Of a DNA stretch of 64,000 nucleotides, positions 3,540-47,558 are shown piece by piece. Origin of the DNA: Polytrichum commune (Eukaryota > Streptophyta > Polytrichopsida > Polytrichales > Polytrichaceae). A model generated the notes under the pieces. It was not told the DNA's origin. It searched no databases and was given only the letters and a program-made list of their open reading frames with translations. The DNA lies in assembly GCA_950295325.1 (NCBI GenBank), contig OX485808.1:1922501-1986500 (forward strand). Direction: 5' to 3'. How positions within the stretch are numbered: position 1 is the first letter of the stretch; each line of letters starts with the position of its first letter. Both the position numbers and the translations under genes were made by a program.

Positions 3540-5023
3540 TTACATCAGATCCGAATCACTGTGATCACCTGATGATGAAGACATTCTAGAATCAGTAATA
3601 TATGCATCAGAGGAGGCCTGACCATCAGATTCTAAAGCTTCTATATCCAAAAACTCTAAAACTCTTCCCGGACGATATTTAGATGTAAAAATCTGATAAG
3701 AACCTCCAGCTAGTTGATTAGCAATATCATTTGCATATGTAGGAAGTTGCCAAGACTTTGGAGGGCTGGGATAGAATTTAGGGTCACAAAAAAAAGGCCG
3801 GTGAATAGGATAGCTCAATTTATCGCATCTGCAAATGCCAATGGTACCATGTTCATAACTCAACTTTATAAGAAATGACAGCAAAAAACATAACACAGGT
3901 AAGAGAATTTGTGGACCTTACTCACTTAGTAAACCGAGATCTTTTCACAATCCTCTCTACGGGGATATCTTCACCCTCAGGATCCTCTAAACTGGTGACA
4001 CGGTCTTCAAGAGTGACTTCAGAGGCTGCTCTAGAGATAATCAATGGAGCAAGTAAGGCCTCAAAAATATCAACATCAGCCTCTAATGCCACAATGTGAC
4101 GGTGCAAATTGCGGCATGCATGAATGGAAGATCCTGCAAATAAAGAAGTTGGAAAAAACTTAGTACAAAAATAACTATGAATTTTGTAGACCAAAACAAT
4201 ATTAACGATTAACCAACTGAAATGGAAGATTACAAAGACATACCGGTCACTGCCGTGCAGTCTAGAATAATATCCCATGGGGAGCTACATGCTTCAATTA
4301 GCATTTGCATTAGAAGCACGGATTTTTCACGAGGCCCTCGCCATGGTGTGGATCCATTAGTTAGCTGGTCCTCACGAGAGACCAAGTTCTGGAGAATATC
4401 ATCCCGTGCAACATCCACCCCATAAGGATCCAATGCAGGGACAAGGCGAAATGAAGACTTCGATGCAGGTGACCCCGGCACGTTCCTGACCGCCAATGAA
4501 ATACCGAACCTCATGGTCTACAATGTACCAGACATAAAGAACAACATTAGTTTACAAAGTAAACAACACAACTGCATGAGTATAATACTTAGGTGGGTCT
4601 ATACTCAGAACTACCTCAAGGATTAAATTGAAACTGAATGCGGTGATCAGCAAGAAGACATAAGGTTTATCTTACAATTGATGCTGGATTTAATGGGGAT
4701 GTGAGATGAAGGCGGTTCATTCCCCACCACTCTTTCCGAATTGCAAAACCATACGATTTGCAATATCCAAGAATATTGGACTTCGTACTCATGCGAAAAG
4801 GGTGAAACAAAATAATTGCCCCGTCGTCGTGCAGATGTTCGTCGGCAAAGTCAAAGAGTGGTTGTAACCACTCTTTCGATTCTTGATTCCAAGCGGGAAT
4901 GGACGACGGTGGGTCTGATATGCCAGGAACAGGAAGACCTTCCGGTATATCTGCAAGAATCAAGTCCAAACAGGGATGGTCCTCCGGAGAACCCTTGTAG
5001 TGCCGGATTTTGTCTTTTGAGTG
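3540..5023 (-). CDS. Gene A, C-terminal half: N6/N4 DNA methyltransferase-like exons
   Basis: Four minus-strand exons with consensus borders and matching phases: 5023-4676, 4517-4244, 4133-3926 and 3828-3540 (stop). The first exon reads LDLILADIPEG and then WLQPLFDFADEHLHDDGAII, the layout of motif IV (normally DPPY) and the following strand in PF01555-type beta-class methyltransferases. The second gives REKSVLLMQMLIEACS (motif X-like) and DIILDCTAVTG. The third continues GSSIHACRNLHRHIVALEAD, matching motif I plus the post-I region (normally FxGSGTT...R..IG.E). DPPY is replaced by DIPE and FxGxG by TAVTG, so catalysis is doubtful. The last exon is a Ser-rich tail. The first exon begins in phase 0 and fits the phase-0 end of the exon at 42619, so this should be the C-terminal half of the ParB-like gene 37 kb away. 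The call rests on motif order; no alignment was run. Confidence 0.62.
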
Positions 5024-5370
5024 CTGCACCCAGCTCAACCCCCAGCTACCCTTAGACTCAAATCAAATTCAGTCACATATCAACTCCTAACCCCTAACCA
5101 GATTCCCTCAACCCACAGTCAAGCTCAAATTCATATCAAAATCACTAACATATTAGACCCTAAACAGAGTGTGTCGGGGCCGAGAGACCTCTTACGAGTC
5201 CTACATTTCAATTTCAGAGTCTTAGAAAAATCAAAACTTTATACATTTACCCCCTACCAGAATCCCCTCTTCCCTCACCCACCCTTAGACTCAAATCATA
5301 ATCAGTCAAATATCAACTCCTAACCCCCAAACCAGATTCCCTCAACCCACAGTCAAGCTCAAATTCATAT
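5024..5370. repeat. Intron remnant with two copies of a 240-bp repeat
   Basis: Two copies of a unit containing CCCTTAGACTCAAATCA and CAACCCACAGTCAAGCTC (about 5049-5150 and 5285-5370). The first copy continues ...TTCATATCAAAATC, while the second is cut at TTCATAT by the CACTA-like terminus. The first copy therefore approximates the pre-insertion site. Confidence 0.55.
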
Positions 5371-5770
5371 ATCACTATATTCGTTAAATTGAGACTTTTT
5401 GGGCATTTTGAGACATTCACATAAATAAGAACAAGGATAAATGGAACACATATTGGAGAAAGTTGTAAGATGCGAACACTTTGAAGCGGGTGTTTAGAAC
5501 AAGAACCCCGCTAATAACTCAATATTTGGGATTGTTTAGGGTGGGCAATCCAAACCTTAGGCCAAGTTGAAGGGGAAATCTTAAAACATTCATATTATCG
5601 CACAAAAACTTGTATGAATATGGTTTAGGTAGGGCAATCCAAACCATAGATCATATTGAAGGGGAAATATGTGAACCAATATAATATAACATACAAAATA
5701 TTCCAAACTCATATTTGTGATGGTTTAGGTAGGGCAATCCAAACCTTAGACCATATGGAAGGGGAAATCA
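5371..5770 (+). mobile_element. CACTA-like transposon left end with subterminal repeats
   Basis: The terminus CACTATATTCGTTAAATTG (from 5373) recurs exactly, in reverse complement, at 40091-40112. Inside it are three subterminal units about 90-100 bp apart. Each carries a 22-bp near-inverted motif of the form GTTTAGG...CCAAAC (5534, 5623, 5723) followed by ...GAAGGGGAAAT. About 180 bp of this end also aligns with the degenerate element at 32987 (shared phrases TTGTAAGATGC and TTTGAAGCGGGTGTT). Inverted termini plus repeated subterminal motifs are typical of CACTA/EnSpm elements. A possible 4-bp duplication ATAT (5367-5370 and 40115-40118) is weak because the site is AT-rich. Confidence 0.6.
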
Positions 5771-5932
5771 TGTGACACTTATATTATTGCAAAAAAAAAA
5801 CATACAAAGTGTGGCATGTAAAATGCATAGCATGCTAACACAACACATCCATTGGATAGTGCGACCCCAAATGTTCTTGCCTATGGCCCAAAACCCTACG
5901 CCTACTATGGCCTATCTAGCCTCGGAGACTAC

Positions 5933-6735
5933 CTATTTTTCTTTTGCTTCATTTTCTTTTGCTTTTTTTTCTTTTGCCTCTTTTTCTTTTGCCTCTTTTT
6001 CTTTTGCTGCGGCTTCTTTTGCTCGCATTGCTTCAACATTCCTGAAAATCTCCGCCCCGCGACTATAGCCATTCTTGGGGTGACCGCCATCAATAACACA
6101 TTTTGGATTCTGTCGGCCGCCCGAATTATACGACGAAGAATTCGAATACGATGAAGTGGATTGTCTTGCATTTCTGGTCATGGAGTAGAAACGCTCCAAC
6201 TCGACGGACGCACTAGCCCGCATAGGTCTACGGGTGGGAGCAACCTGCAACGCGTGAATGCAAGAACACACGTGTTAGTTTAGGGAGGAAGACCCAAACG
6301 TGTCACACGTTCATTTTTTAAGTGCCGGATGATTGTAATGCGCGGTTAACCATGTTTTGGGGGGGGGGGGGGGGGGTTCACCTTGTCACCGGGGGCGTTC
6401 CCGTCGGAGTCGGCGAGGAGGGGCAATGCGTCCCGCAAAGGAATAGGAAGGGTGCCACTCTTCGTAGGCCGAGCGTCCATCCGCAGCCGCCGTTGAGGTG
6501 TACTACTGCCGCCGGGCCGAGAGGGGGACGTCCGGACGCATTTGCGATTTATGCCCTTGAGCGGCGACGGGGACGGAGATCGCCAGAAGATTTGCTTGGG
6601 TGGGGGGCTATCGACGACGCCGGCATCAAGAGGCTCCTTGGAGTAGTCGATGGTGGACGCGGCATCGTAGACGGTCTCGTAGAAGAAGCTCCCCAAGTTT
6701 GATTCGCTGACGATCTCAATCGAGGGCTCCAAACG
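5933..6735 (-). CDS. Hypothetical protein with Lys/Glu-rich coiled-coil tail
   Basis: Two minus-strand exons in phase 0. Exon 6735-6382 follows an excellent pyrimidine tract and CATCAG, and ends at AAG|GTGAAC. Exon 6244-5933 follows GCGTTGCAG and ends at TAG. The product begins LEPSIEIVSESNLGSFFYET, passes through a Pro/Ser-rich middle, and ends in a repeated KEKEAKEKEAKEK tract, encoded by the TTTTGCCTC-type microsatellite on the plus strand. No domain is recognised. The strong acceptor at 6735 means there is at least one more upstream exon. The HAD-like gene just upstream on the same strand is the obvious candidate, but no phase-compatible donor is visible before its stop. The donor lies beside an 18-G run (6359-6376) that may be prone to sequencing error. 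Confidence 0.45.
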
Positions 6736-6854
6736 CTGATGGCAAAATTAAAACAAACAAAACCCAAGGGGAGGGGGGCAGGGGGGGAGCATGAGAAAAT
6801 CGATATACAATTGAGGCATACTATATCACACACAATGGCACACCATGTAGTATC

Positions 6855-7488
6855 TCAAATGAGTTTATTATATTTCGCGTGAGCGTACAACTCTCTGTAC
6901 ATATAGTCCTTCGGATCCATGTATCTTTCGCCTATCGGATTACAACTAAGGAACCGGGGCACGGGTAGTCCGCTCCCCACGAGCGTTTGAATGTACTTAA
7001 GTAGGTCTAACAAAAAGCGGTCTCGGACCTTCTCGACCGTCCACGTGGGGCAAACGATGAAGTTGGAGGTCGGGTTCAAAATGTTTTTGGAAGCACTGTC
7101 GTCCACCATCAACGTGTTGTCACGGGTGGGGCGAACGTCGTAGGGACAGCCGACCATGGTCGGACGCTGGTCCCATACGACTGGCTTCAAGACCTTAAGA
7201 AATTGGTTTACGGCGGGGTTGTTGGGCTTCTTCACAACCCTGCCCTCGGGGGTGTACAATGTTTTACAAGAATCCTGTCCTAGAACCAAGCACGGGGGTT
7301 GGAGTCCCTTGAAGATGAACTCCACGACGGCCTGGGTATTCTCGGACTTCATGGAGCTCCAAATGATCACCCACCATTTGGATAGGGCGACCTGTAGGAA
7401 GCGCCGAAGCCACGGGCGGAGGTACACTAGCTTGCTTTTGATGTACGCGGGGGGTCCATCGTAGTTGGCGTCCTCGGGCTTGCAGAAA
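6855..7488 (-). pseudogene. FCP1/NIF-like HAD phosphatase, C-terminal part (split by retrotransposon)
   Basis: The minus-strand frame reads KSKLVYLRPWLRRFLQVALS, then WWVIIWSSM (HAD motif II region, WSS), LVLGQDSCKTL, and NTLMVDDSASKNILNP (motif III/IV, the acidic DD pair), then the stop at 6855. This is the order of the FCP1/NLI-interacting-factor domain (PF03031), which dephosphorylates phosphoproteins such as the RNA polymerase II tail. The fragment begins exactly at the left end of an 18.2-kb LTR element. The missing N-terminus with motif I lies at 25676-25859. Removing the element and one AGAAA duplication joins the two parts in frame (PF|CKPEDANYDG). The domain is intact apart from the insertion, so the gene was probably functional before it. 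Confidence 0.8.
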
Positions 7489-8540
7489 TGTCGCAACCCT
7501 TGCTAGCCCCCCCTTGACCATCTTGCCAATTTTCAATTCTAGCAAAGGTTACGAGTGGCTAACTGTCGCAACCCTTGCTATCCCCCCCCCTTGACCATCT
7601 TGCCAATTTTCAATTCTAGCAAAGGTTACGAGTGGCTAACCCTTCGCATACCGCCATGCTAATGGTTAGCTCCTCTAACCCCGGACCAATAGTTCATAGG
7701 AGGGAACCAACCCTCCTACTTTGCTTTCGGAACTCACCCCTTAATCGGTAACCCATTTCCCCAATGTGGACTTCCATCCATGGAAGTCCACTCCTATGTT
7801 GATCATCGCGTTGCCGGAGCAACACTACAACAACCCGAACCATACTAGGCAACTATGGCCTCACAATAGGCCAAAGCCCATGGAGGCCTTGCCGTTCGGC
7901 CTCGGGTGGGTGAGGCCACACCACCTCACCCATATAAGCCTCTAGGACTTCACGCGGGGCCCCTACCCCACCGTCAACCAACCTCTTGTCTCTCTACCAA
8001 GAGTTGGGGCCAAGTGGACATTTTCCTTTAGCTGCTGGGCCTAGAACCCCCCAGCAGCTTCAGACCATCATAACTTCCTGGTATGATGTCTGATCATAAC
8101 AACCAACCACGCCATCCTCATCTACGCTTCACGTAGATGCCGATGGACTCCTCACTTGCTCCATTCGAGCAAGTCTTGAGGAAGTTATGCCTGTTTGAAC
8201 CTTGGCAGTCCTGGGAATCACTCCCAGGCACTGCTGTACCAGGGCGCTGTCCCGGGACAGCGCCCCACTCAAATGGCCATAACTCCTAGCTCACACCTCC
8301 GATTGAGGTGATCTTGAGCATTCTAGAATCACCACGCCATGAGCTACGCATAGCTCATGGCCTTACCCTCATGCCTCCTAGTCTCCGTGGGTGGGAGGCG
8401 TTCCCAACGCCCGGGGCCCTCACCCACACTAGGATCACTTGGGCCCTCTCACCAATGGCGCCACAAGTCCCGGGTGTCACTCCGGGGTCCCCCTTGTGCC
8501 CATGGTGTTTCGGGCACTCCTCATGGAGAGGTGCGCGACA
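7489..8540 (-). repeat. LTR 1 (3' LTR in element orientation)
   Basis: Begins TGTCGCAACCC and ends GGTGCGCGACA on the plus strand. It has a 75-bp tandem duplication of its first segment (7489-7563 and 7564-7638) that the other two LTRs lack. It ends directly against CTCACCCCCACCAAAC, the complement of a purine tract. The ORFs at 8308-8646 and 8355-8573 lie across its end and are not genes. Confidence 0.9.
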
Positions 8541-8556
8541 CTCACCCCCACCAAAC
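8541..8556 (-). other. Polypurine tract, internal region 1
   Basis: On the minus strand GTTTGGTGGGGGTGAG directly precedes the LTR start TGTCGC. The equivalent in copy 2 is at 14548-14563. Confidence 0.75.
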
Positions 8557-9340
8557 GGAGTCGATGCCCTCATCGACTATACTCGTAGTCGGCACACCAA
8601 TTCTCAAGTTGCCATCCTCTATGGTGCGGCATTGTGTTTACCTTAGGGCGCGACCCCCACAATGCATCTTCAAATTTGGCATAGTCCCAAAGGTGTCGTT
8701 CCTAGGTGGTCCGTTAGCGACCTTGGATCTCTCCTCCAAGGACCTAACCTACACTAGACCCACCTACTTTGAGACTCACTTGGGTTGCCCCTCCTTTGGG
8801 GCCTCCCCCGTTAGGCTCCACTAGCCTAACGTGACACATCTAGGCGAGACCTCAACGCTTCCACTAAGTTGTCTCGGTTGCAACTCCGAGATGGCTTTCC
8901 ATTGTTAAGCCACGCCTCGATCGCACGGGGGTGATGCCAAGTCCCGCCCGACTCGGTTCCCACTTTGCTCTTTCGAGACATGGGTTCATGACTCCCATGC
9001 GCCAACTCTCGTTAGCTCGCGGGTAGCACTTTTATGAGCACGCGCCATCACCTTGCCCCTGCCCGGACAAGCCCACAACTAAGAAGTTTCTTGGTTTTAT
9101 CCAAGGCCCCTCCAAGCCATGGCCCCCAATTACTCGGCTTACCCAACCTAGTTTGGCATATCTATTCCCCCTCTTCCATTAACCAAGCACAAGTACAAGA
9201 CTAGGACCTCATCTCATACTTTTCTCTTTGCACCACTAAAGTTTGGACTTTATTCCCTCAAGCCAAAGAACAAGTTCATGTTGTGGAGTAATTAACCTCG
9301 AAGCTAAGTGTGCTACTAGCGTCTCTCCCCCACTAAAGGA
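8557..9340. other. Retroelement 3' non-coding region, copy 1
   Basis: Between the polypurine tract and the end of the integrase region. No conserved frame. It is nearly identical to 14564-15207 plus 17310-17456, the same region in copy 2 interrupted by another element. The uninterrupted CAAGA target is at 9196-9200. Confidence 0.7.
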
Positions 9341-10870
9341 GATTGATGTCCTCATCAATGCCTACGCTTCATTTTATTGGAATCCTTAGCCTTAGTTTCT
9401 TCAAAGTGCTTCACCAATTCATTGGTGTTCACCATGTCTCTTGCCGCCACCCAAGCGGTTTCTTTCTCATGGTATCCTCACCATTTCACCAAGTACTCCT
9501 TTGTACATTTTCTTTCATTTTCACTTGGGCTTCCTACACTTGAGGATGCCCTCTTACCTGATGTTCCAAATGACCTCCACAAGGTTGGGACGTGGCCTAA
9601 TCACTTGCTTGTGATCGGGCCACAAGGTGTTGTCCTAAAATGACTTTCATAATGAGACATGAAATGTCGGATGCACTTTGATCTCCGGCGGTAATTCCAA
9701 CTTATACATGTCCTTGAACACTTGTTCCACAATGGAAAACGAAGCTCCAATTTTGGACATGAACTTTTGGAGTAAGGCCTTTGGGCAAGGTGAAGTTGTC
9801 CACATTCAACAACACCTTATTGGCCCACCTCATACTCCACTTCGCGTCTTCCGGCATTGATTTGCACTCCGTAGCACCTTCGGGCTTTCTCCACCAACAA
9901 CTTGGTCATCTCCAAGACTTGTTTACCATCCTTGGCCAAATCCTCACCATCTTGGTTGAACTCTAGTGTTGAATGTGCCCCCTCGAGAGATAGGTTAATA
10001 GGTTGGAGCGCATCCACTCCATAAGCCACCACGAAAGACCACCCCTTGGTAGCCAAGTGCGTGGCTACATTGCAATTACACTCCGCTCGACCCACATAGT
10101 CCGCCCAATCTCCTTGGTCCGCCCCCACCAAGTTCCTCAAGTATTGCTTCAAGACTCCATTCACATGCTCCGCTTTCCCATTCATTTGGGAATGCAAGGC
10201 CGTGCTAAACCTTAGTTTTATTCCGACCTCCTTAGAGAAATGCATTGAAAATGCACTTGTGAACTTTGGATCTTGATCCCACACAATCACTTGTGGCAAC
10301 CCGTGATGCCTCAACCATCCTTTGAGAAAAGGCTATGCGGTCTCCAACGCGGTGGCGGTTCCCACAATCGGCACCATGTGTGCCAACTTGGCAAACCGCT
10401 CTACCATCAACAAGATGGCATCATACCCATGTGACTCCGGCAAACTTGTGATCAAGTCCATGCACATACTATGCCATGGCGCCGACGGGATAGGCAACGG
10501 TTGCAAGAAACCGCCTTGCTTTTTGTAAGAGGCTCAGTTCACTTGGCACTTTGATTCAAGCCTTCACAAAGTGGGCTATATCTTCCTTTATGCACCGCCA
10601 ATGGTACCTCCATGATACCATTCTATGGCGATTTTTTCCTTTCTCCTCTAAGGCCGGCAATAGGACTATCAAATTCCTCCTTCAAAACCGATAGCCTCTA
10701 CTTGCCTTGTGGCACATACACCCAACTTTGCTTGCACTTGAACAATCCGTCCACCAACTTAACTTCTTTGAGCACCTTGCTCTTGCGAAGCTCACCTAAA
10801 AGCTTTTGTGCTTTGGGATAGTTAATTTATCCCTCCCGTATCTTGCATCACAAGTTTCCTTTGCCGGCAC
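9341..10870 (-). pseudogene. Integrase region of gypsy copy 1 (degraded)
   Basis: The minus-strand frame 10314-9817 reads MRHHGLPQVIVWDQDPKFTS, then LHSQMNGKAEHVNGVLKQYL and DQGDWADYVGRAECNCNVAT. These are the second catalytic Asp region (WDQDPKF), the Q.NG..E glutamate helix and the start of the C-terminal domain of a Ty3/gypsy integrase (rve, PF00665). Upstream, 10870-10330 carries broken pieces of the zinc-binding HHCC part and the first Asp region. Several frameshifts separate the parts. Confidence 0.85.
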
Positions 10871-12640
10871 ACATTAGCCACAAGGTTTGGATGGTTCTCA
10901 TTGCTTGGAACTCTTCCTGTCTACTTAGCGCATCCGGCACCACATTTCCACGGTCCGGTTTGTGGACCAAATCCACCTTCGTAAGCGCCAAACTATCATG
11001 CCACCGCAATGAGTTGGCGCTCACTTGCGCTTGTACATGTTAAAATACTTTTAGGACACATTGTCCATGTAGACCTTTGCTTTGTGCAACCCCAAATAAT
11101 GTCGCCACATCTTCAAGCAATGCACTACGGCAAAGAAATTCTTTGTCATGAGTTGGTTGTCTTCTTTGACAACCATCGAGCCTCAAGCCCCCATATGCAA
11201 AGGCCATCCATCTTACATTAACAATCCATCATTGGCAAAGTTAATCACCCCCGTAAGCACCTCAAAAGGTTTGTCAAGCTCCACGAACTTGAGCACGGGC
11301 GGCGAAGAGAACTTGGTGTTAAGCTCCCCAAAGACTTGGTGACAGGGCTAGTCCCACTCTTGGGATAGCCATTTCTTTCACAAGTCGGACAACCATCGAG
11401 CTTCATGCTCCCATATGCAATGGCCATTTTTTTTTTACATCAACATCCGCCAAATAAAGTCCCTCGCCCCTGTATGCACCTCAAAAGGTATGTCAAACTC
11501 CGCGAACTTGAGCACGGGCGGCGAAGAGAACTTCGTCTTAAGCTCCCCAATGGCTTGGTGGCACGACTCATCCCACTCTTGGGATAGCCATTTCTTGTAC
11601 AAGCCGGACAAGGTTCGACAACCATGAAGCTTAATGCTCTCATAAGCAATGGTCATCCATCTTGGATCAACATCCGCCAATGATAAAGTCCTTCGTCTCC
11701 ATGTGCACCTCAAAATGCTTATGAAAACCCGGAAACTTAACCACATCTTGTGAAGGGAACTTGCTCTTGAGCTTCCCAAAGGCTTGGTGACAAGGCTCAT
11801 CCCACTCTTGGGATAGCCATTTTTTCAACAAATTGCCTAAGATCCTAGCAACCTTAGAAAAACCTCGAATGAAGTGGTGGTAGTAGTTGGCTAGGCCAAC
11901 AAATGACCTAAGCCATTTTCTTGAGTCAAGGACCAATTCTCCTTTTGGATGGCCTTGATATTCTTCATGTTTGTCACCAACTTCCTTTGTCACCACATAC
12001 CTCTAGAACTCAATATCTTGTTGAGCAAAGTTATTTTCATTTCTTGGCGGTAACTTTTGGGCAACACATTGGTGAATACATCATTGTATCTCCCCAACAT
12101 CCCACCAAAGTGGTTTAGGGGAGGCCCATCTTTCCTAGCCTCCCCATAAGTTCTATCGAGTTGCTCCAATTGAACCACGACTATTATGTTGGCCATTTTT
12201 CATTTGGTCCATTAAGACCAAATTCAACTTGGGTCCTCCTACCATAGGAGTCCTTATCAATTTGAACTTCATCTCTTTGTCATTATGACACATCATAATG
12301 CACCGCAAGCACACCGGCTTGCACCTCACATCTCTCATGTGAGTTTCAAAGAAGGTGACCTTTCAAATGACATGCACCTCATTTATTTCACATAGAGTGA
12401 AATGTTGACAAAAATCTAGTGTCCCACATCAAAAGGTTACATGCATCGCCGCCTCCTTTGCTTCATGCGGTTCGCCCTTTGCAAACCGTACTTTGGTGGG
12501 CTTGCCGGCTCTACCCGTCCGCGAACCCCAACCCCCTTGTGAGCTTTCGGCTCATGAAAGAGTCCGTTGCCTCTTTGACAACTCATGAGACATATCTCCC
12601 ATTCATTTGAGCCTCAAGGTATACATGACTTGGCCTTGGC
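10871..12640 (-). pseudogene. Reverse transcriptase / RNase H relics of gypsy copy 1
   Basis: Frame 11996-11667 reads WLRSFVGLANYYHHFIRGFS and then FPGFHKHFEVHMETKDFIIGG, the RT thumb to RNase H transition of gypsy elements. A segment of about 220 bp encoding this RNase H start is tandemly repeated roughly three times (about 11230-11830), which itself destroys the frame. Further upstream, 12338-12153 has MRDVRCKPVCL, matching the protease-RT linker. No intact YxDD catalytic box was found. Confidence 0.75.
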
Positions 12641-13625: not shown

Positions 13626-13645
13626 GGAACCCTGCTCTGATACCA
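13626..13645 (-). other. Primer-binding site, copy 1 (initiator tRNA-Met)
   Basis: On the minus strand TGGTATCAGAGCAGGGTTCC begins two bases after the LTR end. TGGTATCAGAGC is the standard plant primer-binding site complementary to the 3' end of initiator tRNA-Met. It fixes the element orientation as minus. Confidence 0.9.
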
Positions 13646-13647
13646 AG

Positions 13648-14547: not shown

Positions 14548-15207
14548 CTCACCTCCACCAAACGGAGTCGATGCCCTCATCGACTATACTCGTAGTCGGC
14601 ACACCAATTCTCAAGTTGCCATCCTCTATGGTGCCGCATTGTGTTTACCTTAGGGCGCGACCCCCACAATGCATCTTCAAATTTGGCATAGTCCCAAAGG
14701 TGTCGTTCCTAGGTGGTCCGTTAGCGACCTTGGATCTCCCATCCAAGGACCTAACCTATACTAGACCCACCTACTTTGGGACTCACTTGGGTTGCCCCTC
14801 CTTTGGGGCCTCCCCCGTTAGGCTCCACTAGCCTAACGTGACACATCTAGGCGAGACCTCAACGCTTCCACTAAGTTGTCTCGGTTGCAACTCCGAGATG
14901 GCTTTCCATTGTTAAGCCACGCCTCGATCGCACGGGGGTGATGCCAAGTCCCGCCCGACTCGGTTCCCACTTTGCTCTTTCGAGACATGGGTTCATGACT
15001 CCCATGCGCCAACTCTTGTTAGCTCGCGGGTAGCACTTTTATGAGCACGCGCCATCACCTTGTCCCCGCCCGGACAAGCCCACAACTAAGAAGTTTCTTG
15101 GTTTTATCCAAGGCCCCTCCAAGCCATGGCCCCCAATTACTCGGCTTACCCAACCTAGTTTGGCATGTCTATTCCCCCTCTTCCATTAACCAAGCACAAG
15201 TACAAGA
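14548..15207. other. Polypurine tract and 3' non-coding region of gypsy copy 2
   Basis: The polypurine tract (minus) is GTTTGGTGGAGGTGAG at 14563-14548. The rest parallels 8557-9200 and stops at the CAAGA target (15203-15207) of the next element. Confidence 0.7.
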
Positions 15208-22507: not shown

Positions 22508-22512
22508 GGTGG

Positions 22513-24697: not shown

Positions 24698-24699
24698 CG

Positions 24700-35180: not shown

Positions 35181-35182
35181 AG

Positions 35183-36495: not shown

Positions 36496-39400
36496 ATGGA
36501 GGGAGTTGGTGGAAGAGGGGATTCCTTCTCTGACGACATGGGCAACACCCAATCTACGTCTGGGGATGAGCTAGACATTGTTGGGGAGGATAGTTTTGAT
36601 GACAGTGCAGATGAAGGTGACTTGGGGAGTCCTTCGCCATCTGCCCCTTCTTGCCCCACTGTGGAATGTGCTGGGCTTTCACGAGCTTCATGGGTGAATT
36701 TGGATGTAGTACTTGTTAATGACAGTGGAGTTGCTGTGGCGGAGGGTATTTGTCGTAACACACATCCACAAGATTGCATTGATGAAAACCCCCTTGGCAC
36801 CGAGGACGTTGGAGTTGTTATATTGGAATCACTCGTACATTCTGAAGTGAATCCAACTCATAGGTTCTCGTTGCAAAGGTGGCCGTTGAGGAATGTGACA
36901 ATTGATGGGGTTAATTTGCATGAGCATGAGCGACGACACATCCAAATCCAAGAAGAGCTCCAAGCAAACATTCGGCCACGCAAAGGCCTACGGAAGTACG
37001 ATACATTGGCACGTCCTACTCCGTCTGCAAATGAGTGTAAACGTCAAAGGTTGCTTTGTGAGGAGTCCATTAGAGAAGTTGCCACAAAGGATTGTTGTGT
37101 ACATCGTTGTTGCCAATTGTTCCCAATTGTTCCCAATTGTTCCCAAGGGATAAATTGAAGGCCATCCGCGAGGAAATGTGGCTTGGAGATTTCCGTCTAA
37201 GATCCACCAAAAAGCTTGATGTCCATAGGGCGATACATGTGAACGGAGCGGGACGCAAGGTCATCACCCTTGAGAGCATAGACGTGTGTTGTACCGCATG
37301 GTACATCATTCACGGTGTGTCAAAAGCGGAATTTTATAGACAAGCCGCGTATGCCAAGGAAGGCCGCCGGTCCCGTCACCATGGGAATACGGGCTTAAAG
37401 AAACCAAGAGAAGCAACGAGACAAGCAACCGCCACTCTAGCAACCATCATTGTCCCCCTTGCCGATGCAATGCCGCACAAAACACGCACACTCGCAACCG
37501 GTGAAAAGGTTGTGGAGAAGGTTCTTCCTACAGGCACGAAATGGAAAGACATATTGTTGGACGTAAACGCAGTTGGCGAGAAGGCTGGGTTGGACCCTAT
37601 TTCGTTGTCGAAACTGAGTGCAATAAAAAAATCTCACTTTAGCGAATACATCACAAAAAGACGAGGCGACAAATTTGCCCGTTGTTCCAAATGCGAGAAG
37701 TTGAAACGCCTTCGAGATGCACACACGATGGAGACAGAGTCCTATGCCGCACATCAAATGAACTATTTCAAGCATGTGAACATGCAAGAGGCACACCGTA
37801 ATGATTACTACACAAATAGAGCTTTGTCCATCTCTAGGCCTTTGGAGGTCTTTACAATCATCCATGACAAAATGGACCATGCCAAAACAACCTCACCATG
37901 TTTTGCAAATCGAATCAAAGCCACGGACGGCCTTTTTAAGCTTCCTGTATCGGTTACAGGTGATTTCGATAACAATTGCATTGCATTACCTAAACACAAA
38001 TTTGTGCTTTAGGTTTGTACTTGGGGCCATAGATGTACACCATGTGAATTTTTTGGTGTTATAGTTGAATATTAAACCATTGGGTTGGCTTTACAGGGAT
38101 GATTGCACATGGACATGGTGATGTCAAGTATGCTCATTATGCTCTTGATTTGTATCCGGCGGATTCAAACCACACGATAGGGTCATTTGCAAAGCTTTTA
38201 CGTGATTTGGAGAAACCGCCGTCCTATTCATCAAGATTGTTATTTGAAAACTCGGGATCAACACCTCTATATGAAGCGGTCTTGGATGGAAGAGATGTAT
38301 GCGTGCACTCCTTGCCGGAGCCACCAAGTGAAGATGTGATTGCCAAGAATTTGCCCCCAACTCTACGTGTCCAATTGGACAATTGTGCGAAGGACAATAA
38401 AAGTAGATATGTTTTTGCATATTGGTCGTTGTTGGTTGCGAAAGGCATTTTCAAGAAGGTTTTTGTGTCCTTTCTATTGGTAGGCCACACGCACGACGAT
38501 ATCGATGCATCTTTTGGGCGGTGGAGCATGAAGTTGCGCGAGGAGGATTTTCCAACAATCCCATTGTTGATGAAGTCGTACATGGATTTGGAGAACATTC
38601 CCGTCATCCCCCATATGATCGAGGACGTTCCAGACTTCAAGGCATTTATAAAACCGTATATTCGAAGCGGAGCTCACCGATTGATCGGACATACGAAGGC
38701 ACAACAATTTCGGTTCTACGTGCGTGACGATGGTGTCCCCGCCATGCAATACAAGTTGTTGTGCACGTCACAAGACTGGAGCCCGCCGGAGGGTCTCCTT
38801 GTATGGCGTGTTGATGGGGAGGGAAGGACGATGTTGCCTGACGGATAGCCTAAGCCTTGCAAACCAATACCCATGAAGAATTTGGAGGACATTTATAAAG
38901 GCATATCAGGCTTCATACAATATTGGGAGAGTTTGAGGGTAGCGGATGTTGGTGGATCGTGTTGGCTTCATTACGGAAGTTGGATACAATATTGGACACG
39001 TGTTCATGGTGCTTTGGCAAACCTTCATCAAGATACACCCCTTACTTTAAGGCATGGGTTTTGGCCACAAACACGTGTCAATGTACAAGCTTCGGAGGCT
39101 AGTCTTTTGGGAAATGGAGAGGTTCGAGAGGAGTTTGATGTGGACGACCATTACGTGGGGCCTGCTAGTAGTCGTCTGCCACCATCTTTCCGCATTGCAG
39201 TGGATTGTCATGAAGGTTATATGCTCATTTTGCGTCCTGGAGATGAGACATATGCAAAGCCAGTGTGGGTGGCAAGAGCTTTGTCCAAACCAAATTTTGT
39301 AACTTCCAGCCCTCATTTTCGACAAATACAAGTAGAGTACTACCGACCGACAGCACGGAATGAAGATGTTGTTCGGCATTATACAGGTTGGGATACAAAC

Positions 39401-39583
39401 CCTAACTTTCGGTGGAAGGTGGATTCTGAGCACGGTCCATCTTGGGTAGATACAGATTCCATATTCATAGCATGGAAACCACGGAAAAATCATAGTGGAT
39501 CAGTGTCCATCCCTCAAAAGTACATAACTTTTGCAAAAGACAACCTTGCTCGGATCGCAGAAGAAGCAACCCACGTTGAATGA
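36496..39583 (+). CDS. Gene C: DUF7869-like protein, possible transposase (two lesions)
   Basis: The start is MEGVGGRGDSF, just after a good acceptor (TTTCCATGTGTGTAG). The N-terminus is acidic. Exon 1 ends ...LPVSVT at 37959; a 137-bp intron (37960-38096) has perfect GT...ACAG borders and phase, continuing GMIAHGHGDVKYAHY. Exon 2 has LPPTLRVQLDNCAKDNKSRY and FLLVGHTHDDIDASFGRW, the two signature blocks of DUF7869-type proteins (D-N...N and GH(T/S)H..D..F). These look like an RNase H-fold catalytic core, but enzymatic activity is inference. The C-terminal block VEYYRPTARNEDVVRH is a small beta-rich domain. Lesions: three 10-bp units of CCCAATTGTT (37111-37146) shift the frame, and subtracting two units restores it; an in-frame TAG lies at 38846-38848, after which the frame stays open to TGA at 39583. 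Confidence 0.65.
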
Positions 39584-40044
39584 GAAGTTGGTAGGATTGT
39601 GTTAGCATGATTATAGTGTAATATGTAATTCGACGAATATATATTACTCATATGTGTGCTCCTCAAACTTGGGGCAAAGTTTGGGTAGAACTTGCGAATG
39701 CTATATTGTTTGGGGTTGGATGAATATCCATTTACTATATTTCAATACAGTTGTGAAGTTCATTTTTTTATTAAGTTTGGGACTAAATTTTCCATTGAAG
39801 AAAAATGCATTTATTGCATGTACTTTGTATGTTGCAATGTCTATATTTTATTGACCATGCTAATAATAGAAATCATTTTATATGTTTTTTGGGTGAAACT
39901 AGTTTGGAGTGCTCTACCCAAAGTGTTTTTGTTGATGAAGTTGGTGTTGAGTGCTCTACCATATGTGCTTATGTCCACACCCCATAGATTTGGGATATTA
40001 GAACATATAATATATTTGAGATTGTTCGCAATATAGTTTCGGAA
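39584..40044. other. 3' flank of gene C
   Basis: AT-rich, no gene. One degenerate 22-bp motif (GTTTGGAGTG...ACCCAAAG) lies at 39902-39923, the counterpart of the subterminal motifs on the left end. Confidence 0.45.
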
Positions 40045-40114
40045 CACGGAATGTTGTTTGATCCATATATTAATTTGAGACTAGAAAAAATCTCAATTTA
40101 ACGAATATAGTGTT
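40045..40114 (-). mobile_element. CACTA-like transposon right end
   Basis: Reverse complement of CACTATATTCGTTAAATTG plus AGA at 40091-40112, exact over 22 bp with 5373-5394. An inner hairpin (AATTTGAGACTAG...AATCTCAATTT) matches the inner part of the miniature element's right end at 33190-33239. Confidence 0.6.
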
Positions 40115-42540
40115 ATATCAACACTTTGAAGCCTCGGCTCTAAGTTCAGATTTCAAGTGCTCACTTTATATATATCTACGTGGCCTCATTTCAGATCAGA
40201 ATCTAACAATATGAAGCCTCGGCTCTTAATTCATATTTGAAGTGCTCACTTTATATATGTCTACGTGGCCTCATTTCAGGTTAGAATCTAACAATATGAA
40301 GCCTCGGCTCTAAATTCATATTTCAAGTGCTCACTTTATATATGTCTACATGGCCTCATTTCAGGTTAGAATCTAACAATATGAAGCCTCGACTCTAAAT
40401 TCATATTTCGGGTGCTCACTTTATGTTATTTTAGCTGGCCTCATTTCAGGTTAGAATCTAACTCTTTGAAAGTGGCTTTCGGTTTAGATTTCAAGTCCTC
40501 ACATTATGTGGCTGTCCAATATATGGGTTTCGGGACCGAATCCTTCATTTTCAGGTCAAGAGGGTCACACCCTGAAGCCTCGGCTTCAAGGTTCAAATTA
40601 AAGGTGCTCACTTTATATATATCTAGTTAACCTCATTTCAGGTTAGAATCTAACAATTAGAGGCCTCGGCTCTAGGTTCAGATTAAAGGTGCTCACTTTA
40701 TGTTGTTTTAGTTGGCCTCATTTCAGGTTAGAATCTAAGTCTTTGAAAGTGGCCTATAGGCTTAGATATCAGGTTCTCACTTTATGTGGGTGTCCAATAT
40801 ATGGGTTTCGGGACCGAAACCTTCCTTTTGAGGTCTAGAGGGTCACACCTTGAAGCCTCGGCTTCAAGGTTCAAATTACAGGTGCTTACTTTATATATAT
40901 CTAGTTGGCCTCATTTCAGGTTATAATCTAAAGCTTTGAAGCCGAGGCTCTAGGTTCAGATTTCAAGTGCTCTCACTTTATGTTGTTCTAGTTGGCCTCA
41001 TTTCAGGTTAGAATATAACACTTTGAAGCCTCGGCTCTACTTTGAGATTTCAGGTTCTCGCTTTATACATGTATAGTTTGCCTCATTTCAGGTTAGAATC
41101 TAACAATTAGAGGCCTCGGCTCTAGGTTCAGATTTAAGGTGCTCACTTTACGTTGTTTTAGTTGGCCTTATTTCAGGTTAGAATCTAGAATTTGAAGGTT
41201 GGCTATAGGCTAAGATTTCAGGTTCTCACTCTATGTTGTTTTAGTTGGCCTCATTTCAGGTTAGAATCTAAGTCTTTGAAAGTGGCCTATAGGCTTAGAT
41301 ATGAGGTTCTCACATTATGTGGCTGTCCAATATATGGGTTTCGGGACCGAAACCTTCATTTTGAGGTCAAGAGGGTCACATTTTGAAGCCTCGGCTTCAA
41401 GCTTCAAATTACAGAAGCTCACTTTATATATATGTAGTTAGCCTCATTTCAGGTTATAATCTTACAATTGGAAGCCTCAGCTCTAAGCTCATATATCGGG
41501 TGCTCACTTTATATAAGTCTAGTTGGCCACATTTCAGGTCAGAATCAACCAATTTGAAGCCTCGGCTCTAGGTTCAGATTTCAAGTGCTCATTTTATATA
41601 TGTCTAGTTGGCCACATTTCAGGTTAGAATCAAACAATTAGAGGCCTCGGCTCTAGGTTCAGATTTAATGTGCTCACTTTATATAAGTCTAGTTGGCCAC
41701 ATTTCAGGTTAGAATCAACCAATTTGAAGCCTCGGCTCTAGGTTCAGATTTCAAGTGCTCATTTTATATATGTCTAGTTGGCCACATTTCAGGTGAGAAT
41801 CAAACAATTAGAGGCCTCGGCTCTAGGTTCAGATTTAATGTGCTCACTTTATATAAGTCTAGTTGGCCACATCTCAAGTCAGAATCAACCAATTTGAGGC
41901 CTCGGCTCTAGGTTCAGATTTCAAGTGCTCATTTTATATATGTCTAGTTGGCCACATTTCAGGTTAGAATCTAACAATTAGAGGCCTCGGCTCTAGGTTC
42001 AGATTAAAGGTGCTCACTTTATGTTGATTTAGTTGGCCTCATTTCAGGTTAGAATCTAAGTCTTTGAAAGTGGCCTATAGGCTTAGATACGAGGTTCTCA
42101 CATTATGTGGCTGTCCAACATATGGGTTTCGGGACCGAAACCTTCATTTTGAGGTCAAGAGGGTCACATTTTGAAGCCTCGGCTTCAAGCTTCAAATTAC
42201 AGGAGCTCACTTTATATATATGTAGTTGGCCTCATTTCAGGTTATAATCTAACAATTTGAAGCCTCGGTTCTATGTTGAGGTTTCGGGTGCTCACTTTAT
42301 ATAAATCTAGTTGGCCTCATTTCAGGTTAGAATCTAACACTTTGAAGCCTCGGCTTCAAGGTTCAAATTACATGTGCTCGCTTTATATATCTAGTTTGCC
42401 TCATTTCTGGTTATAATCTAACAATTTGAAGCCTCTGCTCTAAGTTCATATATCGGGTGCTCACTTTATATAAGTCTAGTCGGCCTCATTTCAGGTTAGA
42501 ATCAAACATTTTGAAGTCTCGGTTCTAGGTTGAGCAAATA
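40115..42540 (+). repeat. 85-bp satellite, forward-oriented array
   Basis: Units of about 85 bp with GAAGCCTCGGCTCTA, GTGCTCACTTTATATA, GGCCTCATTTCAGGTTAGAA. They are interspersed with a longer variant carrying a palindromic GTTTCGGGACCGAAAC. The array sits in the large gene A intron and has the opposite orientation to the arrays further right. Confidence 0.9.
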
Positions 42541-42618
42541 CTCAAATTTTCTAACTCTACTGGTCACACCATTGGATTGACAAGATTGAAATGCATAAAT
42601 TTAAAGGAAGAGCAGTAC

Positions 42619-45600
42619 CTTGAGCATGAATGTTTTCAAGTCGTTGTAGGAAGGGGTGAATTCATCCGTGTCACCGCCAAGAACGTCGTCCAATGAGGAG
42701 TTGAGAATGAGCTCTTCAATATGGATGTCGAGCTCCTCCCCAGATGTCATAATAGGTATTTGACTCAACTGCTCATAGGACGAGTCGCGTTTTGTGCCTC
42801 TAGAAAATGTTGGAGCATGAGAACCAGATTCATATGTGGGACTTGGAGCAACCGGACTCTTACCTTGTGGCTCCGGAGGGGGGTTCATCTTATTTTTCCC
42901 CTTTCTAGTGGACTTATCCAACGAATTCTGCACCTTCTCCCGCTCTTTTTGGTCAGCTCTCTCCTCAGCGCTTTCTTTCGGTCCTCTTCAATGCGTCGTT
43001 TCATTGCCTTTGCCCTCTCATTTTCATCTTCTATGGCCTGTAAGTCAACCATTTCAATTCCAGACTCACCTACAGCCTCCCTTGATTTCTTGAGCTCAAT
43101 CTCAAAAGAAGGAGTGAAACTTAAAGCACAATCAAGATACCAGGCACCGCCGGTAAGGTGAGAACTTGTCCACGTGCGTTCTTGAAGAGCCGAGAACATG
43201 CACGCTGAGTTTGATCTATCAAGCCATGTGTTCAAGAATACAGGAAGGTCATCTTTGGAAATAGCTCCTTTCGCCAAAAGCTCGTACTTAAAGTACCTGT
43301 GTTACGAAATAGCACATAACATTAACATCAACAACTTCCGAACTAGCAAAACAAAGAATATGGACTGAACCAATTATTGAAATTAATGAAAAGTCCTTAA
43401 AGATTAGAGACGCACCGAAAAAGAACTCGGCGGACAACTAGGTCAGCTCCGTTAAATCCAACAAACTCGTCACCTTTTTTGAAGGAATCTTGTCCTCTGA
43501 AGTAGGTGTTGAAGGCATGGTCCCATAACTTCATGCGACAGTCTTCGATATACGCTGGCAATAACATGGGCTCACTGGCAATACTCATGTTGATATGAAC
43601 TCGGTCTTGACGCATGGTCTCGTCAAAAATGAGACTGGCCTGTTCTGAGATTTGTTAAGCAAGAAAATAAGCATCAGCTGGACCAATTTCTAAATCAAGT
43701 CGATGAAATAAAGAATGATAGTTGTGTAAATTACATGCCAAAGATGAATTCAATGAACTGAAAATTGAATAGAAGCAGTGGACTTACTCCTGCCCAGAAA
43801 CAAGCCTTTGCCAAGAAATTTGCCAATTTATCTTCGTTGATAGGCTTGGGAGGTAGCTTTCGGGCCTCACGAGTGGAAGCAGATGAATTAAAGTACTCTA
43901 GCCATTTTATTTTCATTGCCGGAGACGCCCTTGAAGTTGCAATGAGCTGCAACTTCTCTAAGTTGAGGTCCGGGGAAAGTGAGTTTAACGTGTAATGTCG
44001 CTCAATCTGAAAGACAGAGCTCTTGTGAGTTCCTCAGTCAAACGGATAAGCTTAAAAGATTGATATGGACAAAGGATCAGGGTGCGTACCTCACGTAGCC
44101 AACCGTCGGTAAGCTCCGGGTTCGCCACAGCAACCAATTTTCCCATTTTCATGCGAAGTGCCAGAGATCTCTTCTCAACTGCGGCTTTCATCGCAGCCGC
44201 CTTGTCAGCAGGGGAGACTTCTCCTTCTGATTGCTCCACAAGCTGACGTGCACCCTCGTCGGCAGCGAGACCCAGCTCATGCTGCACAAAGAGAGAACAA
44301 GAACGAGGAAACCAAATTTTGAAATGAAAATGAAATTAATAAGTTGGACAAGATGTTTTGGACAAAAGAACTGAACTAGAGCTAGACAAATGAGAGCACC
44401 CGAAATCTGAACCTAGAGCCGAGGCTTCACATTGTTAGAATCTAACCTGAAATGAGGCCATCAAATCCAAAACATTAAGTGAGACCTGAAATCTGAACCT
44501 ATATCCAGGGCTTCAATGTCTTTGATTTTAACCTGAAATGTGGCCAACTAGACTTATATAAAGTGAGCACCCGAAATCTCAAACTAGAGCCGAGGCTTCA
44601 AAGTGTTAGATTCTAACCTGAAATGAGGCCAACTACATATATATAAAGTGAGCACCTGTAATTCGAACCTTGAAGCCGAGGCTTCAAAATGTGACCCTCT
44701 TGACCTCAAAATGAAGGTTTCGGTCCCGAAACCCATATATTGGACAGCCACATAATGTGAGAACCTCATATCTAAGCTTATAGGCCACTTTCAAAGACTT
44801 AGATTCTAACCTGAAATGAAGCTAACTAAACCAACATAAAGTAAGCATGTGAAAAATCAAACTAGAGCCGAGGCTTCAAAGTGTTAGATTCTAACCTGAA
44901 ATGAGGCCATCCAAACCAAAATAAAGTGAGCACCCGAATTCTCATACTAGAGCCTAGGCTTCAAAATGTTAGATTCTAACTTGAAATGTGGCAACTAGAC
45001 TTATATAAAGTGAGCACCTGAAATCTCAAACTAAAGCGGAGGCTTCAAAGTGTCAGTTTCTAAGTTCAAATGAGGCCACTTAGAGTTAGAGTCTAACCTG
45101 AAATGAGGCCAACTAAAACAACATAAAGTGTTTACCTTAAATCTGAACCTAGAGCCGAGGCCTCTTATTGTTAGATTCTAACCTGAAATGAGGCCAACTA
45201 GATAAATATAAAGTGAGCACCTGTAATGTGAAACTTGAAGCCGAGGCTTCAAAATGTGACCTTCTAGACCTCCAAAGGAAGGTTTCGGTCCCGAAACCCA
45301 TATATTGGACACCCACATAAAATGAGACCCTGAAATCTAAGCCTATAGGCCACTTTCAAAGATTTACATTCTAACCTGAAATGAAGCTAATTAAACCAAC
45401 ATAAAGTGAGCATGTGAAAAATCAAACTAGAGCCGAAGGTTCAAAGTGTTAGATTCTAACCTGAAAAGAGGCCAAACACACATATATAAAGTGAGCACCC
45501 GAAATATCAAACTAGAGCCGAGGCTTCAAAGTGTTAGATTATAACTTGAAATGAGGCCAACTAGATATATATAAAATGAGCACCTTTAATTGAACCTTGA

Positions 45601-47558
45601 AGCCGGGGCTTCAGGGTGTGACCCTCTAGACCTCAAAAGGAAGGTTTCGGTCTCGAAACCCATATATTGGACAGCCACATAATGTGAGAACCTGATATCT
45701 AAGCTTATAGGCCACTTTCAAAGACTTAGATTCTAACCTGAAATGAGGCCAACTAAAACAACTTAAAGTGAGCACCCGAATTCTCATATTAGAGCCTAGG
45801 CTTCAAAGTGTTAGATTCTAACCTGAAATGAGGCCAACTAGACTTATATAAAGTGAGCACCTGAAATCTCAAACAAGAGGCGAGGCTTCAAAGTGTTAGA
45901 TTCTAACCTGAAATGAGGCCATCCAAACCAAAATAAAGTGAGCACCCGAATTCTCATACTAGAGCCTAGGCTTCAAAATGTTAGATTCTAACTTGAAATG
46001 TGGCAACTAGACTTACATAAAGTGAGCACCTGAAATCTCAAACTAGAGCGGAGGCTTCAAAGTGCCAGTTTCTAAGTTCAAATGAGGCCACTTAGAGTTA
46101 GAGTCTAACCTGAAATGAGGCCAACTAAAACAACATAAAGTGTTTACCTTAAATCTGAACTTAGAGCCGAGGCCTCTTATTGTTAGATTCTAATCTGAAA
46201 TGAGGCCAACTAGATAAATATAAAGTGAGCACCTGTAATGTGAAACTTGAAGCCGAGGCTTCAAAATGTGACCTTCTAGACCTCCAAAGGAAGGTTTCGG
46301 TCCCGAAACCCATATATTGGACAACCACATAAAATGAGACCCTGAAATCTAAGCCTATAGGCCATTTTCAAAGATTTACATTCTAACCTGAAATGAAGCT
46401 AACTAAACCAACATAAAATGAGCATGTGAAAAATCAAACTAGAGCCGAGGCTTCAAAGTGTTAGATTCTAACCTGAAATGAGGCTACTTAGGAACCTTCT
46501 AATTGGGGTTGGGTCCCGAACCCCATATATTGGACATTCACAAAATGTGAGAACCTGAAATCTTAACCTATAGCCCACCATCAAAGTTCACATATTTTAG
46601 GACTATTCCGTGACGCACCTGAAATATGAAATTTGTAAATACATGTAATGGTAACGAATACCAAGTCTTCTGAGACTTCTTGCCCTTTTTGAGGTCGGTT
46701 GGACTCAAAATGTCATTGAATTGTTCAATTGACATAAAACCATACTTCTGAACCTTGAAGAGGGTATGGACAATGTTGGTCTTCACATGAGAGTCCTCTG
46801 TATGTCTAAATACAAAAATCAAATGGAAGATATTAGATTATCGTAGTAAGAAAGAAAGTGAAATCATATTGAATTTTCAATGAAAGATTATATATCAAAA
46901 GAGAATGAACATACTTGTTTATGTTGTGCATGACTTGCATAACAAGTCCATTTTTTCCCTTTGTGTCAAGGAGAATTGAATCCACCAAATAATGCCAATC
47001 CTCATCAGTTCGGTGAAGTCTGTCAATGTCATTTAACCAAGCTTGACGCCTATGGTTGCCGTCGCACACAAAAAACATCAAATTTATGAATGGAGCCAAC
47101 GCTGGATCCAAGAGGAGAAATGAGTTGAAAATGGCGTTTTTGGCGTCCCAAATAGGACCCCAAGAAGCTTTATCAGCTTCTGTCACTTTATGGGTATTTC
47201 CGTCTTCATTGGTGATTGTAACATAAAAGACCGAAGCGCCTTCCCTGTATCCGTGCACAAATTCTTGCTCGAGTTTAGCAAGATCGGATGCTAGAGTTGG
47301 CCGTACCATTGGCATTGCCATCAATCTGCACAACGGAATATTAAATCGCGAAGAACTGTTTGGTTGAAATCTCAAGCTTGTAATCGTGGCCACAGAGTTA
47401 ACTTTTTGCCTGGTCCGAATCTCATCCTCATTACCTAGAAAGTGAGCATCATCTCCAAGAGACTCTTCTTCTACCTCATGCTCGTCCTCTAGTATATCCA
47501 TATCTGGAAGTTTTCCCTCCGATACTTGTGTCGAAGGTGGCGAAGATATAGCATGCAC
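42619..47558 (-). CDS. Gene A, N-terminal half: ParB-like DGNHR protein
   Basis: Minus-strand exons with consensus borders and consistent phase: 47558-46915, 46805-46619, 44281-44090, 44006-43788, 43639-43416 and 43296-42619. Exon 1 has an acidic start, then RFNIPLCRLMAMPMVRPTL and VHGYREGASVFYVTI. At about residues 161-174 it has MFFVCDGNHRRQAW, matching the ParB/Srx fold (strand, then DGxHR loop, then helix). Middle exons are helical without a known domain (HELGLAADEGARQ, RYFKYELLAKGAI). Exon 6 has a charged coiled coil (ENERAKAMKRRIEEDRKK) and ends phase 0 at TFMLK. A 2-bp GC insertion near 42970 shifts the frame inside the coiled coil. Exon 1 is preceded by an acceptor (TTTGGTAG), so earlier exons may exist, though MDILEDEHEVEEES could be the start. 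The methyltransferase half is at 3540-5023. Confidence 0.65.
44291..44390. other. Gene A intron 2, unique 3' part
   Basis: A short unique stretch with a strong pyrimidine tract (TTCTTGTTCTCTCTTTGTGCAG on the minus strand, ending at 44282) separates the satellite from exon 3. Confidence 0.5.
44391..46600 (-). repeat. 85-bp satellite array inside gene A intron 2
   Basis: Inverted relative to 40115-42540. A block of about 1 kb is duplicated (about 44910-45440 resembles 45930-46470). The ORF at 44584-44769 is satellite sequence, not a gene. Confidence 0.9.

Follow-up and report, generated by a model that had tools for sequence, protein, structure and literature searches.

A ParB- and methyltransferase-like gene carried by a Mutator-like DNA transposon of the moss Polytrichum commune, with private repeat arrays

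Genes that join a ParB-like domain to a DNA amino-methyltransferase domain have been described in algal transposons. In the brown alga Ectocarpus, the 21.5-kb Sola1 element Sola1-1_Ec32 carries, opposite its transposase, a gene for a 1,104-amino-acid (aa) protein with a ParB-like and an N4C/N6A methyltransferase domain (Dinatale et al. 2025, PMC12477816), and the same paper points to similar proteins in transposons of green and red algae, citing Iyer et al. 2011 and Petroll et al. 2025. Here we analyse a 64,000-nt stretch of the genome of the moss Polytrichum commune (the window, C6:1922501-1986500), in which a ten-exon minus-strand gene, gene A, lies within a DNA transposon, element A. Coordinates are positions in the window unless a contig is given, and published systems are compared through passages of the cited papers. 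Gene A resembles the Sola1-1_Ec32 gene in that it codes for a single protein of about 1,100 aa with the two kinds of domain, has a transposase-like gene on the opposite strand and is carried by a DNA transposon of about 21 kb. However, the Ectocarpus transposase is of the Sola1 type, whereas element A has a SWIM-like one and 10-bp duplications, and element B, a second transposon nested in gene A, has DUF7869; the hosts are a brown alga and a moss, respectively; and repeat arrays, which element A has, are not mentioned for Sola1-1_Ec32 in the passages compared.

A second comparison is with VANC of Arabidopsis Mutator-like elements (MULEs), which binds family-specific motifs in tandem repeats located in introns and upstream of the transposase (PMC5735166). 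Element A resembles the VANDAL elements as a Mutator-like plant transposon that has an extra gene and whose repeat arrays occupy introns and the space ahead of the transposase-like gene, although this likeness of the arrays is one of position only. The domains given for VANC are DUF1985 and DUF287, with no ParB or methyltransferase among them, so the resemblance to gene A can lie only in how the two proteins might work. The prokaryotic Bce_0392 shares with gene A the fusion of a ParB domain to an adenine methylase, and its ParB part reportedly nicks DNA non-specifically (PMC5512222). The bdelloid N4CMT is, like gene A, a eukaryotic, transposon-linked, permuted amino-methyltransferase of PF01555. 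However, it is a host gene that helps to silence transposons, it has an intact SPPY motif and it carries a chromodomain instead of ParB; alanine substitution of the SPPY Ser and Tyr left it inactive (PMC8885841). Transposons that code for a methyltransferase beside the transposase, as element A does, have been described with Methyltransf_26 and C5-cytosine types, and the passages compared mention no ParB in them. ParB itself is described as recognising short palindromic sites, spreading from them, and gathering and compacting nearby DNA.

Because Dinatale et al. (2025) report algal examples, a transposon gene of the ParB-methyltransferase type is of a known kind. An earlier reading of the window's sequence, hereafter the original prediction, had known of no described plant nuclear version of this architecture, which the algal examples show to be incomplete. 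Our literature search gave no paper that describes the architecture from a moss or any other land plant, a weak absence with the cited algal studies outside the comparison. What we did not find described is the moss host, the carriage by SWIM-like and DUF7869 elements, the conserved DxPE motif and the matching private arrays.

Gene A and the transposon that carries it

The exons of gene A in the window are as follows (AdoMet, S-adenosylmethionine).

46915..47558, minus strand: exon 1, ParB/Srx-like domain with DGNHR
46619..46805, minus strand: exon 2, compared with ten other copies
44090..44281, minus strand: exon 3, compared with ten other copies
43788..44006, minus strand: exon 4, compared with ten other copies
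43416..43639, minus strand: exon 5, compared with ten other copies
42619..43296, minus strand: exon 6, with a 16-bp shortfall relative to ten other copies and a frame break between about 42987 and 42885
4676..5023, minus strand: exon 7, methyltransferase motif IV region (DIPE)
4244..4517, minus strand: exon 8, motif X and start of motif I
3926..4133, minus strand: exon 9, remainder of motif I (AdoMet-site region)
3538..3828, minus strand: exon 10, acidic C-terminus and stop

A search with the exon 7 protein against the window's own genome (407.8 Mb, 64 contigs) gave at least 150 scored copies among 1,127 candidates, with identities of 72-100%. Twenty stretches of 10 kb were compared, 19 of them around exon 7 copies and one, L028, beside its target. 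The ten close copies (L009, L010, L012-L018 and L020) have the same exon order for every exon within the stretch, and their borders are AG|GT, with single changes in L009, L015, L017 and L020. Exons 6 and 7 are separated by an intron of 2,443-3,172 bp in nine of these ten; the intron of L009 is 3,827 bp long, its homology begins 980 bp later, and its exon 6 is seemingly interrupted. In five diverged copies (L021, L023, L024, L025 and L027) the two exons lie about 1.2-2.2 kb apart, and no exon 6 match was found within the 10-kb stretch in L011, L019, L022 or L026. All ten exons are inside the stretch in six of the ten close copies; the other four are cut by the end of the stretch or lack exons 1 and 2. 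L012 and L017 have an open frame of 1,092 residues that ends only at the terminal stop, the latter with one acceptor changed. L016 and L018 are each interrupted by two internal stops, and in L014 and L020 the frame of exon 1 is shifted by one base. The ten exons, with the join from donor 42618 to acceptor 5024 that the original prediction proposed, are a real spliced gene, and in the copies compared its two halves are not separate genes.

The predicted exons and borders were thus confirmed, but not the continuous phase. In the window, exon 6 has no single frame throughout. A small intron was rejected as the cause of the break, although many GT-AG choices bridge the gap; none of the ten compared copies lacks the 16 bp, and a deletion private to the window's gene explains the break more simply. 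Exon 1 opens at an acceptor, with its first Met at residue 20, and an exon upstream of it was looked for and not found. The 37.6-kb intron 6 of the window consists of a 2.9-kb intron and a 34.7-kb nested transposon, element B: intron 6 of other copies aligns to the window from 42618 to 40115 and resumes from 5370 to 5024. The 44-kb locus is therefore one gene, as had been proposed, but not a unique plant gene, given the copy number and the second transposon in intron 6. That it is a single genuine nuclear gene with a 37.6-kb intron would agree with the existence of the exons and borders; this explanation is refuted by the number of exon 7 copies, the transposon ends around the gene and the intron insertion whose site is uninterrupted elsewhere, and the exon 6 frame break also counts against it.

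Element A and its parts are located as follows.

2691..2700: left target-site duplication, 10 bp, CTCACAACCA
2701..59492: element A, outer DNA transposon, enlarged by nested insertions; homology among the window, c1 and c2 ends there in all three
54317..57028, plus strand: transposase-like gene, first part (frames 54317-55645 and 55838-57028), collinear in c1 and c2
57022..58620: insertion of about 1.6 kb with a 35-bp minisatellite, splitting the second transposase-like frame, absent from c1 and c2
58565..58906, plus strand: SWIM-like zinc finger (CxC..CxH) of the transposase-like gene, in a frame that opens within the insertion
59493..59502: right target-site duplication, 10 bp, CTCACAACCA

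In the two other copies, c1 (C5:36096101-36123600) and c2 (C7:4759001-4786500), element A is about 21 kb long and has end points identical to those in the window. Its terminal inverted repeats read CAACGA..GCTAC..TGTGAGCGG and the complement, with CAA, GA, GCTAC and TGTGAGCGG as common parts. The 10-bp flanking duplication is private to each of the three copies (CTCACAACCA in the window, GTCCCGCTTG in c1 and GCGGTGGGAC in c2). The transposase-like frames, of 755 and 752 aa in c1 and c2, respectively, and of 488 aa, lie opposite gene A and run divergently from it. The second frame ends in CxC..CxH, and a D..C..H pattern was recognised by eye. PF04434 (SWIM) scored 13.1 bits on the window piece, under its cut-off of 19.6, and the 718- and 488-aa stretches of c2 gave no match to a Pfam transposase domain. 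Because a duplication of 10 bp fits the 8-11 bp given for Mutator-like elements (PMC6446971), we call element A Mutator-like, with reserve. Gene A is an accessory gene of this Mutator-like DNA transposon. The frame break in exon 6 and the 1.6-kb insertion in the transposase-like frame disrupt both genes of the window's element A, and this copy of the element is dead.

Several further features of these copies were observed. A 61-bp tandem repeat flanks element A on both sides (1910-2537 and 59494-60231), and the element therefore seems to have inserted in a minisatellite. The blast edges of the 57022-58620 insertion overlap by 3 bp, as with a 3-bp duplication. Positions 3224-7997 of L028 (C4:41966801-41976800) contain a member of the gene A family that is compact, degraded and diverged, with EGNHR and 31-60% identity per matched exon; the homologues P0016, P0235 and P0237 resemble its lineage. 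In L021, L022 and L023, exons 7-10 are near the window subfamily (about 89-97%) and exons 1-6 are diverged (63-83%); these copies are perhaps mosaic elements that arose via recombination in the repeat-rich intron 6.

The two halves of the gene A protein

The pocket motif of the ParB/Srx fold is acidic-G-x-H-R. The N-terminal part of gene A has a fold match to ParB/Noc/KorB, which places it in the ParB/Srx fold and bears out the ParB-like DGNHR module that had been proposed for exon 1. DGNHR or EGNHR is found in 118 of the 120 homologues listed. Pfam searches with 50 members of the ParB half returned no ParB family; PF06245 matched 7 of the 50, with a best E of 0.053. Two of four ParB pieces matched phrog_1033 (best E 0.0051), and, of the sequence searches against the PDB with this half, one was empty and another gave two chance matches only.

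For the C-terminal half, the spliced exons 7-9 of the sister copy L012 match PF01555 with an E of 1.3e-7 (32.2 bits, cut-off 26.7), in agreement with the proposal that these exons are methyltransferase-like; a PF01555 search of the diverged L028 piece gave no match. The motifs follow the order IV, X, I, of which the part matched by PF01555 covers X to I, while the place of motif IV was set by inspection and a weak alignment with CcrM (E 0.041). A simple pattern anchored motif IV in 83 of the 120 listed methyltransferase relatives, the anchor being absent in 37. DxPE is found in 65 of the 83 (DIPE 24, DMPE 14, DVPE 14, DLPE 7 and DQPE 6), and the remaining 18 are near variants or mis-anchored. 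Among the 120 listed relatives we detected no DPPY, NPPY or SPPY, only a single NPPH whose position is unchecked. DIPE, noted in the window as an altered motif, is therefore a trait of the family. The other alteration, TAVTG, is a variant of this copy, others having TAATG: motif I was found by pattern in 36 relatives, 20 of which have DCTAATG, and one Ceratodon protein has DIGAGTG. Since the gene A family has DxPE in place of the catalytic [DNS]PP[YFW] pattern, we file gene A as methyltransferase-like and not as a proven enzyme. Judged from these alignments, its C-terminus resembles a permuted amino-methyltransferase of the beta class, retains the AdoMet-side motif region and has a conserved DxPE as motif IV.

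The methyltransferase profile matched 284 proteins at an E of 0.001, and those named among the 120 listed are KC19_5G032000, M758_UG251900 and KC19_N032100 of the moss Ceratodon purpureus; the ParB profile matched 673 proteins, of which 120 were listed. A search with the full-length protein gave none of 7,995 scored candidates at an E of 0.01, whereas the profiles succeeded half by half. By eye, the regions of exons 6 and 7 lie in one open frame in P0031, with a short linker like an unspliced intron, and in one frame without a linker in P0082. Scans of contigs from viruses and prokaryotes gave 73, 22 and 76 pattern matches, of which not one was confirmed as a relative of gene A; with two short patterns each, this is a weak test.

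Ratios of nonsynonymous to synonymous substitution rates (dN/dS) were estimated for gene A; these values are rough owing to silent-site saturation and the small sample. Against a composite of the diverged copies L022, L023 and L027, dN/dS is 0.108 over 964 codons, with a dS of 1.47. By part, exon 1 gives 0.062, exon 6 gives 0.118, exons 7-9 give 0.110 and exon 10 gives 0.314, while silent sites of exons 3-5 are saturated against the diverged copies. Two close copies compared over 1,022 codons give 0.75, a value based on only 40 differences. The comparison with diverged copies points to purifying selection on gene A, and a low value against diverged copies with a high one between close copies is what would be expected of a gene selected on a moving element and decaying after insertion.

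These data bear on two other explanations. Pack-MULEs carry pieces of host genes, a precedent for regarding gene A as a host gene that was fragmented and copied by transposons and has no function for the element. However, the ten-exon gene is complete in six of the ten close copies, dN/dS is low against diverged copies, the same transposase-like neighbour is present in c1, c2 and the window, and relatives occur in Ceratodon and on many contigs, all of which makes this explanation very improbable. Alternatively, gene A may code for an active self-modifying enzyme that binds its own element and adds N6-methyladenine (6mA) or N4-methylcytosine (4mC), marking or protecting the transposon DNA, as Dinatale et al. 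suggest (PMC12477816). The architecture, the size (1,092 residues compared with 1,104 aa) and the opposite strand are as in the Ectocarpus protein, the AdoMet-side motif region is significant, and exons 7-9 appear to be under purifying selection (dN/dS 0.110). This is countered by the family-wide DxPE, by the absence of DPPY, NPPY and SPPY from the listed relatives and by N4CMT, which is inactive once the Ser and Tyr of SPPY are replaced by Ala (PMC8885841). The DxPE motif and the inactive N4CMT mutants make a non-catalytic or altered methyltransferase-like half likelier than ordinary amino-methylation, and we regard an active enzyme as rather unlikely.

Private repeat arrays and a possible role

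Element A contains three arrays of an 85-bp repeat.

40120..42531: 85-bp repeat array in gene A intron 6, same place in c1
44394..46613: 85-bp repeat array in gene A intron 2, same place in c1
47705..54337: 85-bp repeat array separating gene A from the transposase-like gene, same place in c1

With up to two mismatches, the core of the repeat, AACCTGAAATGAGGCC, occurs 100 times in the window, 78 times in c1, 71 times in c2 and once in b1, a copy of element B. In the window, 99 of the 100 cores are in element A's own sequence and one is a stray at 29866. The 78 cores of c1 are divided between the intergenic space (47), intron 2 (11) and intron 6 (20), with none in the exons of gene A. A dyad, GTTAGANTCTAAC, lies beside the core and overlaps it; at up to one mismatch it has 84 sites in the window, all between 40280 and 54324, where 0.22 would be expected. 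Such counts are inflated by tandem repeats, and the conservation of the core was partly built in by the choice of repeat, which is not so for the left half of the dyad. The arrays are family-private, partly dyad-symmetric and located in non-coding DNA, namely the two longest introns and the space between the genes.

As the layout is that of VANC, we infer that the gene A product binds its own arrays and acts on the chromatin state of the element. We tentatively propose, with a probability of about 0.45, that it is a self-targeting DNA-binding factor that counters silencing and whose conserved DxPE is likely non-catalytic or altered. The protein would recognise the arrays of its own element via the ParB-like part or the unassigned middle region, and would load on them in the way ParB loads on parS clusters. 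As motif IV lacks its aromatic residue, the protein would probably not N-methylate DNA in the ordinary manner. The AdoMet-binding fold would more likely serve in structure, sensing or competition and shield the element from silencing by the host, in the manner of VANC and the VANDAL elements.

Alternatively, the arrays may serve transposition itself: by binding the internal repeats, the protein would assist the transposase in pairing or compacting so long an element and would take no part in silencing. In favour of this, the arrays are of large size and internal position, gene A is divergent from the transposase-like gene, and ParB proteins gather and compact DNA at their sites. However, the arrays are in introns and between genes and not at the element ends, and we consider such a function doubtful, a little more so than an active enzyme.

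If gene A codes for a self-targeting factor that counters silencing, element A would be a land-plant parallel to VANC, maybe of separate origin. The passages of PMC12477816 compared contain no function test for the algal transposon ParB-methyltransferases. To these the moss adds a high copy number, a second ParB-like gene in an unrelated transposon, an altered catalytic motif and candidate self targets; given such candidate sites within the element, what transposon ParB-methyltransferases do to transposon DNA is directly testable.

The nested element B and its ParB-like gene

The main parts of element B are as follows.

5371..40114: element B, nested DNA transposon of 34.7 kb within gene A intron 6, with ends ATCACTATATTCGTTAAATTGAGA and complement
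26998..30864, minus strand: gene B, exons 30864-29547 (DGQHS, ParB-like), 29326-27995 and 27834-26998
36334..39583, plus strand: DUF7869 gene, candidate transposase, frames 36334-37158, 37074-38012, 38069-38848 and 38849-39583
26306..36318: 20-bp palindrome TTTGGGTCGNNCGACCCAAA, 28 copies, none in gene B exons or DUF7869 frames

The ends of element B form a near-perfect inverted repeat (ATCACTATATTCGTTAAATTGAGA and AACACTATATTCGTTAAATTGAGA), its target duplication is at most 4 bp (ATAT), and its insertion point is uninterrupted in the five copies compared there. The frame at 38069-38848 was assigned to DUF7869 by PF25273, with an E of 4.4e-43. A further copy, b1 (C3:36407301-36423000), has the DUF7869 gene, the repeats and gene B in the same order as the window, and homology to a second copy on the DUF7869 side ends at the inverted end (window 40115, L042:435), which places gene B and DUF7869 in one element. 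The end away from the DUF7869 side was seen in the window only.

Candidates for the ParB-like exon of gene B numbered 924, with at least 150 scored as matches. This exon is open for 474 codons in b1 and has a frame break in the window, and dN/dS between the two is 0.27 over 443 codons. Near the C-terminus, gene B has FNVFGGS..YIEDGD, which is motif I-like, and an acidic C-terminal exon follows. The ParB part gave a weak match to phrog_1033 (E 0.018), the methyltransferase part had no match in Pfam or PHROG, and a sequence search of the PDB with gene B returned one chance match only. An hhalign comparison of the gene B and gene A families put DGQH in register with DGNH (E 0.076) and FNVFGGS with motif I (E 0.097), and 2 of 20 shuffles reached each value. 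Since shuffles reach these E values, gene B is called ParB- and methyltransferase-like by motif order and weak matches only, and any kinship with gene A is hypothetical. A single-sequence AF2 model of the methyltransferase-like exon of gene B had a pLDDT of 34.7 and was discarded.

With up to three mismatches, the TTTGGGTCGNNCGACCCAAA palindrome occurs 28 times in the window (22 exact), all within element B, where none is expected; b1 has 30, and c1 and c2 have none. The palindromes form a parS-like cluster, spaced by about 56-66 bp at 35495-36318, and also lie within gene B introns. It is conceivable, though on balance improbable, that both of these unrelated transposons encode a ParB fold fused to a methyltransferase-like pseudo-enzyme, have a private array of dyad-symmetric, parS-like sites in non-coding DNA and practise VANC-like self-targeting. 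Site recognition of a prokaryotic kind would then serve each element for its own DNA, with DxPE providing a conserved new chemistry or AdoMet sensing.

Element B has probably itself received insertions. Near-identical open-frame stretches (LTPPIEVILS.. and an overlapping frame) lie at 8290-8824, 14297-14831 and 25425-25875, and integrase-like frames were recognised by eye at 9817-10332 and 17899-18444; these are probably retrotransposon pieces nested in element B. Finally, the segments 19643-22128, in element B, and 61010-63495, beyond element A, are 2,486-bp inverted copies that are 100% complementary, a very recent repeat.

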